Shown here: one piece after another, positions 17,427 to 23,211 of the stretch
How the letters are laid out: each line of letters opens with the position of its first letter
How positions within the stretch are numbered: position 1 is the first letter of the stretch
Origin: Chloroflexi bacterium OLB13
GTDB taxonomy: Bacteria; Chloroflexota; Anaerolineae; Aggregatilineales; Phototrophicaceae
Direction of reading: 5' to 3'
NCBI GenBank assembly: GCA_001567485.1
Contig: JZRA01000092.1
Location: 62,001-126,000 of the forward strand
Length of the DNA: 64,000 bases
Made by a program: the position numbers and the translations under genes
Notes under the pieces: generated by a model
Database searches by the model: none
What the model saw: the letters and a program-made list of their open reading frames with translations, nothing else
Told to the model about the DNA's origin: nothing

Positions 17427-17482
17427 CCGTTTCACAGCCCCGAGTAACGTAAGGTCTGCTCGCCACGATGAAGGACGAACCG

Positions 17483-18205
17483 ATGCATGTCGACACCTTA
17501 ATCAGCCGCAGCAGACCTTTTCTTTCATGGGTCGTGGACTGGCAGAATTCCCTCAAGCCGGTTTCACTGCGTGATCTCGTGGCGGATGCTGGCCCCGACG
17601 CGGTTGGCCTTGTCAGCGTCGATGTCATCAAGGGATTCTGCTCGGTCGGCCCGTTGGCGTCTCCACGAATTGAGGGCATCATCGTACCGATCACCACGCT
17701 GTTCACGGACGCGTGGGCGCTCGGGGTGCGCAATATCGCGGTCACGCAGGACGCACACCCTGAGCACGCCATCGAGTTCGCCAGCTATGCGCCGCACTGC
17801 ATCCGCGGTACGGCAGAGGCCGAGACCGTCGATGCGTTTCGCTCGCTGCCCTTCTTCGACTCGATTCCGGTGTTCGAGAAGAACAGCATCAACAGCGCGT
17901 TCGCGACCGGCTTTCAGGCGTGGCTCGACACGCGCACGCACGTCAAGACGTGGATTGCCGTCGGCGACTGTACCGATCTATGCACCTACCAACTTGCGAT
18001 GCACCTGCGCTTATCGGCCAATCAGCATCAGCGTGCCGGCGTTCGGGTGATCGTGCCAGTCAACGCTGTGGATACGTATGACTTACCGGTCGCCGCGGCG
18101 CAGCAGATCGGCGCGACGCCACATGATGGCGATCTGCTTCACACTGTGTTCCTATATTCAATGATGCTGAATGGTATCGAAGTCGTGAGCGAGGTAACAG
18201 TCTGA
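17483..18205 (+). CDS. Isochorismatase-family hydrolase, nicotinamidase-like
   Basis: This 240-residue cysteine hydrolase has the features of nicotinamidase (nicotinamide to nicotinate): a catalytic Asp in SVDVIKGF, a metal site in TQDAHPEH, the YAPHCIRGTAEAE block, a Lys in FEKNSINSAF and the nucleophile Cys in GDCTDLCTYQ. The ATG at 17483 has AAGGA 7 bases upstream and is preferred to the ATG 15 bases earlier. A remnant of nicotinate phosphoribosyltransferase, the next enzyme of NAD salvage, lies 2.3 kb downstream on the other strand, which supports this reading. The stop overlaps the mtnA start by one base. Confidence 0.8.
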   Translation: MHVDTLISRSRPFLSWVVDWQNSLKPVSLRDLVADAGPDAVGLVSVDVIKGFCSVGPLASPRIEGIIVPITTLFTDAWALGVRNIAVTQDAHPEHAIEFASYAPHCIRGTAEAETVDAFRSLPFFDSIPVFEKNSINSAFATGFQAWLDTRTHVKTWIAVGDCTDLCTYQLAMHLRLSANQHQRAGVRVIVPVNAVDTYDLPVAAAQQIGATPHDGDLLHTVFLYSMMLNGIEVVSEVTV

Positions 18206-19248
18206 TGCGCACAGTCGATTGGGTAGGCGGAGTCGTACGCATGATTGACCAACGCGCGCTGCCGTGGTCATTCGAAACCGTGGACTTGGGCACGGTCGAG
18301 GAAGTCGCTGAGGCTATCACCAACATGACGGTGCGCGGCGCGCCGGCGATTGGCGTGTCGGCGGCGTTCGGGATGGCGTTGGCCGGGTTCACGAGCGCCG
18401 CGCGTTCACCCGAAGGCATCCGTGCCGACCTCGCGATGGCGGCCAATATGCTCAAGAACGCGCGTCCGACGGCGGTCAATCTGGCGTGGGCCGTCGATAC
18501 GATGCTCACGCTGGCCGATCAGCACGATTACCGAACCGCTGACGAATTCCGCCATGCGCTGATTGATGCGGCAAGGTCGATGGCAGACGCCGACGTTGAA
18601 ATCTGCAAGGCGATGGGCCGTCACGGCCGCGAACTGATCTCCGACGGCATGACCGTGCTGCATCACTGCAATACCGGGGCGCTGGCAGCGGTCGACTACG
18701 GCACCGCGCTGGGGGTGATCCGGGCCGCGCATGAGGCTGGCACGCGCTTTCACGTCTTCCTCGATGAGACCCGCCCACGGCTTCAGGGCGCGCGGCTGTC
18801 GGCATGGGAGCTGGAGCAGCAGGGGATCTCGTACGACATCCTGCCCGACACCGCCGCTGGTTTCTTCATGCAGCGCGGCGAGGTGCAGCTGGTGCTCGTC
18901 GGCGCGGATCGCGTCGCCGCGAACGGTGATTTCGCTAACAAGATCGGGACGTATCAGCTCGCCGTATTGGCGAAGGAGAACCGCATCCCGTTCTACACGG
19001 TCGCGCCAACATCGACCGTCGATCTATCGCTCGCAAGCGGCAGCGAAATTCCAATTGAGGAACGCAGCCCCGACGAGGTCACTCACCCGTATGGCAACAA
19101 GCTGGTGCCGGATCATTTCCGGGCGCGCAATCCGGCCTTCGATGTGACGCCCGCGCGCTACGTCTCCGGGATCGTCACCGAGCACGGGATCGCGCGGCCG
19201 CCGTTTACCGAGTCGCTGCAGAAGGCCGTCGCCGGGCAGCTACTCTGA
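18205..19248 (+). CDS. mtnA: S-methyl-5-thioribose-1-phosphate isomerase
   Basis: The enzyme converts methylthioribose 1-phosphate to methylthioribulose 1-phosphate in methionine salvage. The 347-residue protein has TVRGAPAIGV, the HHCNTGALAAVDYGTALG block with the catalytic Cys (C155), DETRPRLQGARL, and GADRVAANGDFANKIGT with the catalytic Asp (D235). The related aIF2B-like ribose-1,5-bisphosphate isomerases share the fold, but the motifs fit MtnA. It is translationally coupled to the nicotinamidase-like gene (TGATG). The last nine bases overlap the convergent ATPase gene. Confidence 0.93.
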   Translation: MRTVDWVGGVVRMIDQRALPWSFETVDLGTVEEVAEAITNMTVRGAPAIGVSAAFGMALAGFTSAARSPEGIRADLAMAANMLKNARPTAVNLAWAVDTMLTLADQHDYRTADEFRHALIDAARSMADADVEICKAMGRHGRELISDGMTVLHHCNTGALAAVDYGTALGVIRAAHEAGTRFHVFLDETRPRLQGARLSAWELEQQGISYDILPDTAAGFFMQRGEVQLVLVGADRVAANGDFANKIGTYQLAVLAKENRIPFYTVAPTSTVDLSLASGSEIPIEERSPDEVTHPYGNKLVPDHFRARNPAFDVTPARYVSGIVTEHGIARPPFTESLQKAVAGQLL

Positions 19249-20523
19249 CGGCTTCGTCCATGCCTCAGGGGGGAGGTCGAGCGCGTGCTGCGGCGTTCTG
19301 CCCGTTGGCTCCAGCCCGTTCCACCCCTGCCCTATCAGCTCGATCAGGCTGGAACTCCCCGCGTTATCGGTCTGCCACTCGCTGATCGCGACGATGGCAA
19401 GCCTGTCCTTACGCCGCCGCAGCGTGATGACGAACGGCAGCGCATCGAAGACGGCATGAGCCGGGTCGTCAGGGATCCCGGCGGCCTGCTTGGCGCGCAG
19501 CGTCAGCATAGACAGCGCCGGCGCGAGCCGTTTCGCCTCTGCTGTGCCGCGAAATGACCAAATCTGCCGGATCACGCTGGATGCGTTCAGCAGTGGAAGC
19601 ACAGCGGCCGGTTCATCCGCGCGGATTTCATCGACAACCAGCAGATCGCACGGGGTTTCCACCGCTGCTGCGGCTGTTTCTGCGAATGAGATCATCGGCC
19701 GGTCACCCTTCGGCCACTGCACGACGAACCGTTCCACGCCGTCCACCAGCGCGAGTTCACCGGCACGTTCCACCGACCGCACAGTGCGAGCGCCGGTCTC
19801 ACGCGCGAGCGCGCCGGCGAGCGTCGTTTTTCCACTGTCCGCCTCGCCGACCACCAACACTCCATGCGATGATCGGGCGATGGCTCGCAGCACCACCAAG
19901 ATCATCTCGCTATCTGCGAACGCGTCAAGCGCAATCGGCTTGGCGGGATGCAGCCGGATATACCCCTCTGGCCGGGATGCGGCCGGCGGCAGCACCAGAT
20001 TGAGGCACATGCGCCGCCCGAATGCCTCCAAGCCGACTTCATAGTACGGGCCGTGACCCAGCTCCGTATCGGCGTCGGTCAGCATCCGTTCCAACACCCG
20101 CTGCAAGCCCGCATGGTCTTCAAAGGCGCGGTCAGCAGGTTCCAAGTCGCCCAGCCCGGATCGCACCGCCGTCTTCTCGATCCCCTCGAACGTGACCGTC
20201 GAAACGGCCGGATCGGCAAGGAATGGGTCGAGGCCGCCGTATCCGAAGATTTCCGAATACACCTCGTCCATCAGCGCCGCCAGTTCCGCCTGCCCCAAAT
20301 CCGCCGACTCGACAGCAGTCACATACAGCACGGTGTCGCGCAGCAGTTTGAGGCGATCCGCACGGGTTCTCGCGGCGGCGACGTCGGGATGATCGCTGCC
20401 GAATTCGCGCATGAACTGATCGACTGCCCGTTCGACCAACGCGCGAATCGACATCATACGCGCGCCGTGCCGTGACGGCACCAGCCGAACCCCCTTGCTC
20501 CAACCCCGTTTTTCGTCGCTCAT
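19240..20523 (-). CDS. CpaF/VirB11-like secretion ATPase, orphan
   Basis: This 427-residue protein resembles the CpaF group of type II/IV secretion ATPases. An N-terminal all-alpha region includes YGGLDPFLADPAVSTVTFEG, the usual CpaF pattern of a final-domain start. A Walker A (GEADSGKTT, near residue 225) and a Walker B-like LLVVDEIRADE follow. It is more diverged than normal CpaF (the usual GGTGSGKTT is changed) and there are no tad/pil genes nearby. It begins 4 bases after the pseudogene remnant of pncB, so it may have been its operon partner. Its real role is unclear. Confidence 0.7.
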   Translation of the reverse strand: MSDEKRGWSKGVRLVPSRHGARMMSIRALVERAVDQFMREFGSDHPDVAAARTRADRLKLLRDTVLYVTAVESADLGQAELAALMDEVYSEIFGYGGLDPFLADPAVSTVTFEGIEKTAVRSGLGDLEPADRAFEDHAGLQRVLERMLTDADTELGHGPYYEVGLEAFGRRMCLNLVLPPAASRPEGYIRLHPAKPIALDAFADSEMILVVLRAIARSSHGVLVVGEADSGKTTLAGALARETGARTVRSVERAGELALVDGVERFVVQWPKGDRPMISFAETAAAAVETPCDLLVVDEIRADEPAAVLPLLNASSVIRQIWSFRGTAEAKRLAPALSMLTLRAKQAAGIPDDPAHAVFDALPFVITLRRRKDRLAIVAISEWQTDNAGSSSLIELIGQGWNGLEPTGRTPQHALDLPPEAWTKPSE

Positions 20524-20527
20524 GGGC

Positions 20528-20853
20528 CTACAACTCGCTCAAATCCACAGGACGCAGTTCTGCGTGCGCGCCCGCGCGGCGGCCCGCCTTCGCCACGTCG
20601 ACCCAACGCCCGTTCAACTTGGCGCGTGCGATATCCAGTGTGAAGTCCGTATTGGTCATCCGGTCATTGGTCATTATCGACGATCCGACTCCGTACATGT
20701 CGTACCCTGATCGGTCAAGCCCGCCAAAATCGCGATGGTGTTCTCGAAGTACTTGTCGCTGTACAGGCCGCGGCGAATCGCATCCATCGGAAGCGCCATG
20801 ACGTCCTGTGTGAGCCGATTCCCGTCGAAAAGTGTCATCCGCCGCCGTTCCAT
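20528..20853 (-). pseudogene. pncB: Nicotinate phosphoribosyltransferase remnant (large internal deletion and frame break)
   Basis: The minus strand keeps both ends of a nicotinate phosphoribosyltransferase but almost nothing between. From the ATG at 20853 one frame reads MERRRMTLFDGNRL and RRGLYSDKYFENT, the typical N-terminus, and stops at 20674. In another frame, from about 20735 to the stop at 20528, the typical C-terminus is read: GYDMYGVGSSIM, TNTDFTLDIARAKLNG and VDVAKAGRR. The join lies near 20715-20735. The family is normally 430-480 residues, so about 1 kb is missing and the two ends are out of frame. It cannot encode an active enzyme. A chimeric assembly join would give the same picture. 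Confidence 0.75.

Positions 20854-20941: not shown

Positions 20942-23211
<2,270 letters not shown>

Follow-up and report, generated by a model that had tools for sequence, protein, structure and literature searches.

The gene for a nicotinate phosphoribosyltransferase (NAPRTase)-like protein is reduced to its two ends in the assembly of the uncultured Chloroflexi bacterium OLB13. Both pieces of this pncB-like remnant, which derive from one gene, lie in order on the minus strand (20838-20528) of the window, the stretch of 64,000 nucleotides of contig JZRA01000092.1 that was analysed, in two different frames and where the congeners have their intact gene (Table 1). Given two recognisable ends, an absent centre and an intact gene at this position in close relatives, the remnant is interpreted as a genuine pseudogene formed by internal deletion, with a probability of about 0.83.

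Table 1. The remnant and its neighbouring genes in the window. Profile E-values refer to the 135 short translations searched.
Feature	Position	Strand	Characteristics
Nicotinamidase-like gene, intact	17468..18205	+	PF00857, 54.1 bits; NF008623, 15.1 of 174 bits
P-loop ATPase, weak TadA likeness	19240..20523	-	TIGR03819, 61.9 of 373 bits; also the neighbour in relatives
C-terminal remnant	20528..20704	-	last 58 codons (20704-20531) and stop codon (20530-20528), other frame; 63% identity to two congeners across 57 aa; profile E=6.3e-23
Junction zone, 11 nt	20705..20715	-	stands where congeners have about 341 codons
N-terminal remnant	20716..20838	-	codons 1-41 of the NAPRTase-like gene; 67.5-68% identity to two congeners across 40-41 aa; profile E=9e-15
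PfkB-family kinase gene, divergent	20942..21907	+	PF00294, 126 bits; also the neighbour in relatives

The intact gene comprises 440 codons (1,323 bp) in both congeners compared (L008 and L029), while the window copy holds 41 codons in one frame and 58 in another. The net loss amounts to 1,012 bp and is out of frame, with 341 residues in the congeners, and 341-355 across 49 intact proteins, replaced by the junction. These 49 proteins, all of at least 440 aa, were retained from 54 distinct sequences after exclusion of five shorter ones, and include genome G066 twice (L055 and L084) and six rows that belong to further families within the order; the profile built from them matches both pieces. The coordinates of the remnant were not taken from global DNA alignment, in which the N-terminal piece was misplaced. 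The initial annotation had described a collapsed pncB gene with both ends kept, its centre gone and the ends joined out of frame, all of which is borne out by the profile of the relatives, the congener alignments and the change of frame over the junction. The extent it gave was less accurate: it expected a length of about 1.4 kb where the congeners have 1,323 bp, and its coordinate reflects an ATG at 20853, which precedes by 15 nt the start aligned among the relatives (20838). When searched alone, the two fragments have no matches in Pfam or the PDB, and among the NCBIfam NAPRTase models the C-terminal piece has weak matches (E=5e-4 and 5e-3) and the N-terminal piece none. The remnant is therefore identified as NAPRTase-like through the proteins of its relatives, which both pieces do match, rather than through library matches of its own.

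The intact proteins are homologous to NAPRTases of solved structure, with 2i14 (E=5.1e-14), 1ytd (2.3e-5) and 4yub (2.9e-4) being the sole three PDB matches of the L008 protein. The congener proteins also match the NAPRTase models NF005529 (PRK07188) and NF006415 (PRK08662) over most of their length, at 174-175 and 119-120 bits, but fall short of the curated cut-offs of 378 and 243 bits (best scores of 174 and 175.1 bits for L008 and L029), and the window copy is gutted besides. The intact gene codes for a divergent NAPRTase-like protein; as it scores below the NCBIfam curated cut-offs, nicotinic acid is a presumed substrate, which the enzyme would turn into nicotinate mononucleotide, on the way to the cofactor NAD. 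The canonical long NAPRTase (NF006695, TIGR01513), of about 520 aa, is only remotely related to this short form (25% over 312 aa, E=5e-4). In two order-mates it is the long enzyme, not the divergent short one, that stands between the kinase and ATPase genes (L016 1108-2733 and L022 910-2697), an exchange of enzyme types at one slot; in a scan of L016 its long NAPRTase passes the cut-off (596.6 of 469 bits). Three family genomes that do not have the short form at the slot encode a long one elsewhere (G016, G024 and G028). Such exchanges are a hint that both forms may do the same job.

In the relatives, the intact gene is divergent beside the PfkB-family kinase gene and directly before the gene for the TadA-like ATPase. 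The kinase was searched for in 98 family genomes and found at E<=1e-70 in 92, of which 20 were left unscored. The 72 rows that were scored comprise the stretches from 60 genomes minus one that was too short (L127), 11 other loci, one locus from the kinase search and the window itself. The slot holds an intact gene in 46 of the 72, no gene in 22 and a stub in four, the window included; the row for G002 was scored from a kinase and gene on separate contigs of the same genome, and in that for G035 the gene runs off its contig with 337 of 440 residues visible. Where the gene is absent, the kinase and ATPase genes adjoin one another in ten cases, the kinase gene stands beside mtnA with the ATPase not found in nine, and neither neighbour occurs within the stretch in three (G020, G036 and G089, the last showing only about 2 kb). 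On the kinase tree, the slot must have switched at least 12 times between the intact and the non-intact state (8 times on starred branches alone). This tree was built quickly and leaves 20 of its 69 inner branches open, and such a count does not tell gain from loss; we read it as several losses of the gene from this slot.

Each stub has been shortened in its own way. In G033 (L117) a start of 17 residues runs in frame straight into the final four and the stop, giving a 21-codon product, while G076 (L121) has a start in one frame and, in a second one, NPDLIQVDLSEL with the stop, immediately ahead of the ATPase start. Only the stretch LSIFDRKRL is kept in G099 (L102), whose near tree neighbours G101 and G120 have the gene intact. 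These three stubs, which have differing breakpoints, were called by place, strand and reading by eye, the profile search giving E=0.37 for G033 and E=0.58 for G076 and missing G099. A first deletion may be common to G033 and G076, which are sisters. Since the stubs occupy three separate places on the kinase tree, they arose at least three times. A literature search, going by titles, found no paper on loss of this gene in Chloroflexi. Gutted metabolic genes are common and the lesion by itself is ordinary; the OLB13 remnant is one case, with both ends readable, of a loss that recurs in the family at one chromosomal place.

As proposed here, the gene would have lost codons 42 to about 382 in an internal deletion of approximately 1 kb which, by shifting the frame, left a pseudogene. 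Both ends would have survived simply from lying outside the breakpoints, and selection may perhaps have favoured retention of the start region and of read-through into the downstream ATPase gene, which begins 4 nt past the stop of the remnant. A proline directly precedes the C-terminal piece in all 49 intact relatives and is lacking in the window, and native sequence therefore stops at this point. The changes special to the window are distributed over codon positions 1, 2 and 3 as 16/15/34, a codon structure showing that constraint acted on the gene through most of its past. There is no more than a hint of decay since the deletion: three of the 19 columns conserved at 90% are broken in the C-terminal piece, where intact relatives break at most two, none of the nine conserved columns is broken in the N-terminal piece, and in codon-position make-up the remnant is no different from the intact kinase gene (p=0.64). 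A 17-nt direct repeat (82%) lies close to both window breakpoints in L029 (1401-1417 and 2433-2449). The deletion may possibly have arisen through this repeat, but its spacing of 1,032 would keep the frame and the window lost 1,012, and L008 does not have the repeat.

The initial annotation had also raised a mis-join during assembly, in which case the gene would be intact in the cell, with about 1 kb skipped by the assembler or in a chimeric molecule. The fragmented state of the assembly (148 contigs) is in keeping with such an error, and the single assembly, the intact gene in both congeners and the failure to find a known substitute enzyme in the genome all count against a real deletion, the last because it makes the loss look costly. 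Assemblers commonly join on longer words than the mere 11 nt which separate the recognisable ends here. The missing centre is, furthermore, found on no other contig (the full congener protein retrieves only the two pieces at E<=10), though it could be unbinned, and other genomes carry different stubs of the same gene. The short junction and the repeated stubs in relatives make a real internal deletion the likelier of the two explanations, and the mis-join is kept as an unlikely one; the lesion is probably present in the living organism, beyond the single assembly. Somewhat less probable again is a real deletion carried by only part of the population, with the assembly showing that allele. The pieces display little decay, as a recent event would, and the congener records are titled as metagenome assemblies, but a second version is not found in the OLB13 assembly, where contamination is 1.21%, an argument of little weight given that assemblies usually keep one allele. 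It is hardly credible that the remnant is functional, as a short peptide or as a leader keeping the ATPase gene expressed, for although G033, with its in-frame product, and G076 also retain both ends and the remnant ends so close to the ATPase start, each stub has its own breakpoints and frames, the ten scored sites with adjoining kinase and ATPase genes have no recognisable remnant and so do not need one, and the stretch that matches the solved NAPRTases falls within the deleted codons. Promoter and terminator scans yielded nothing that bears on the remnant.

Genuine deletion of this gene would cut the salvage of nicotinamide, via the neighbouring nicotinamidase-like enzyme, at the NAPRTase step. 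That an intact nicotinamidase-like gene stands nearby, as had been annotated, is confirmed by its isochorismatase-superfamily domain (PF00857, cut-off 27 bits) and by a profile of seven relatives, though its score falls far short of the equivalog cut-off for nicotinamidase (NF008623; Table 1). Nicotinamidases are characterised by a catalytic D, K and C and a metal-binding D, H and H. Residues D52, D95, H97, H110, K138, C168 and C172 are invariant in all seven aligned sequences and are candidates for these roles. The profile of the seven relatives has three matches in the PDB, all named nicotinamidase (best E=6.9e-6), while the single sequence has no match there. Of the earlier suggestion that NAD salvage from nicotinamide is broken if the lesion is real, the gutted gene is observed and the break in the pathway is predicted from it, with both the neighbour and the intact relatives below curated cut-offs.

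It had further been suggested that the step might be served by another copy, but searches across the OLB13 genome for a second pncB or for nadV found none. In this assembly, which is 95.5% complete, there is no NAPRTase match to NF006415 at E<=1, a model that has matches in 13 of 14 control genomes. Matches are likewise lacking in the assembly for NAMPT (nadV), for PnuC and for NadC (QRPTase), the last detected in 14 of 14 controls, and NadA has no credible match, the one at E=0.2 having internal stops. NadE is present (C48:57126-57836). Six of the 13 ORFs near nadE were scanned and comprise transport permeases, an alpha/beta hydrolase, a WD40 protein and one without a match; in this ORF set an overlapping frame stood in place of nadE itself. 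The NAD source of OLB13, and of the similar genomes listed below, may possibly lie in genes on missing contigs, in an unrecognised enzyme or in riboside uptake. Lactic acid bacteria of carpenter bees, which belong to another phylum than OLB13, provide a comparison. These NAD auxotrophs are reported to have neither a nicotinate phosphoribosyltransferase gene nor nadE (PMC10433979), sharing the first absence with OLB13 but differing in the second.

Across the family, NF006415 has a match in 50 of 61 genomes, those in G020 and G036 overlapping their NadC gene, while QRPTase is matched in 14 of 61 and NAMPT in none of the 61. PF04095, with 6 matches in 61 genomes, proved too narrow to detect even the short form when intact, and its zeros were not used. 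Among the genomes without the gene at the slot, G016, G024 and G028 encode the long NAPRTase elsewhere, and G017, G020, G036 and G028 have NadC. Six genomes which are at least 90% complete, namely OLB13, G011, G013, G018, G033 and G034, have no match to NAPRTase or to NadC. In all six the slot gene is lost or a stub and NadE is present, and none has PnuC above the cut-off, G013 showing a weak match below it; the search for NadA covered the OLB13 genome. As each assembly may miss a few percent of genes, single absences are weak, and the joint lack of a recognised NAD entry enzyme in six genomes is suggestive rather than proof. A doubtful proposal is that these related Anaerolineae have dropped every recognised NAD-feeding phosphoribosyltransferase, kept NadE and use an undescribed entry, either an unrecognised phosphoribosyltransferase or a carrier other than PnuC that takes up the riboside or mononucleotide of nicotinic acid. 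If this were true, OLB13, with its freshly gutted gene, would just have crossed the line to such an entry. With no recognised replacement in six sampled genomes that are without a working gene, the supply of NAD from the community or through an unknown enzyme becomes a testable question; this missing entry point is what most merits further study, the snapshot of a recurrent loss being moderately interesting. A carbon-nitrogen hydrolase gene (PF00795) is located a few kb from nadE in G033 (L145 5788-6756) and G011 (L148 2063-2950).
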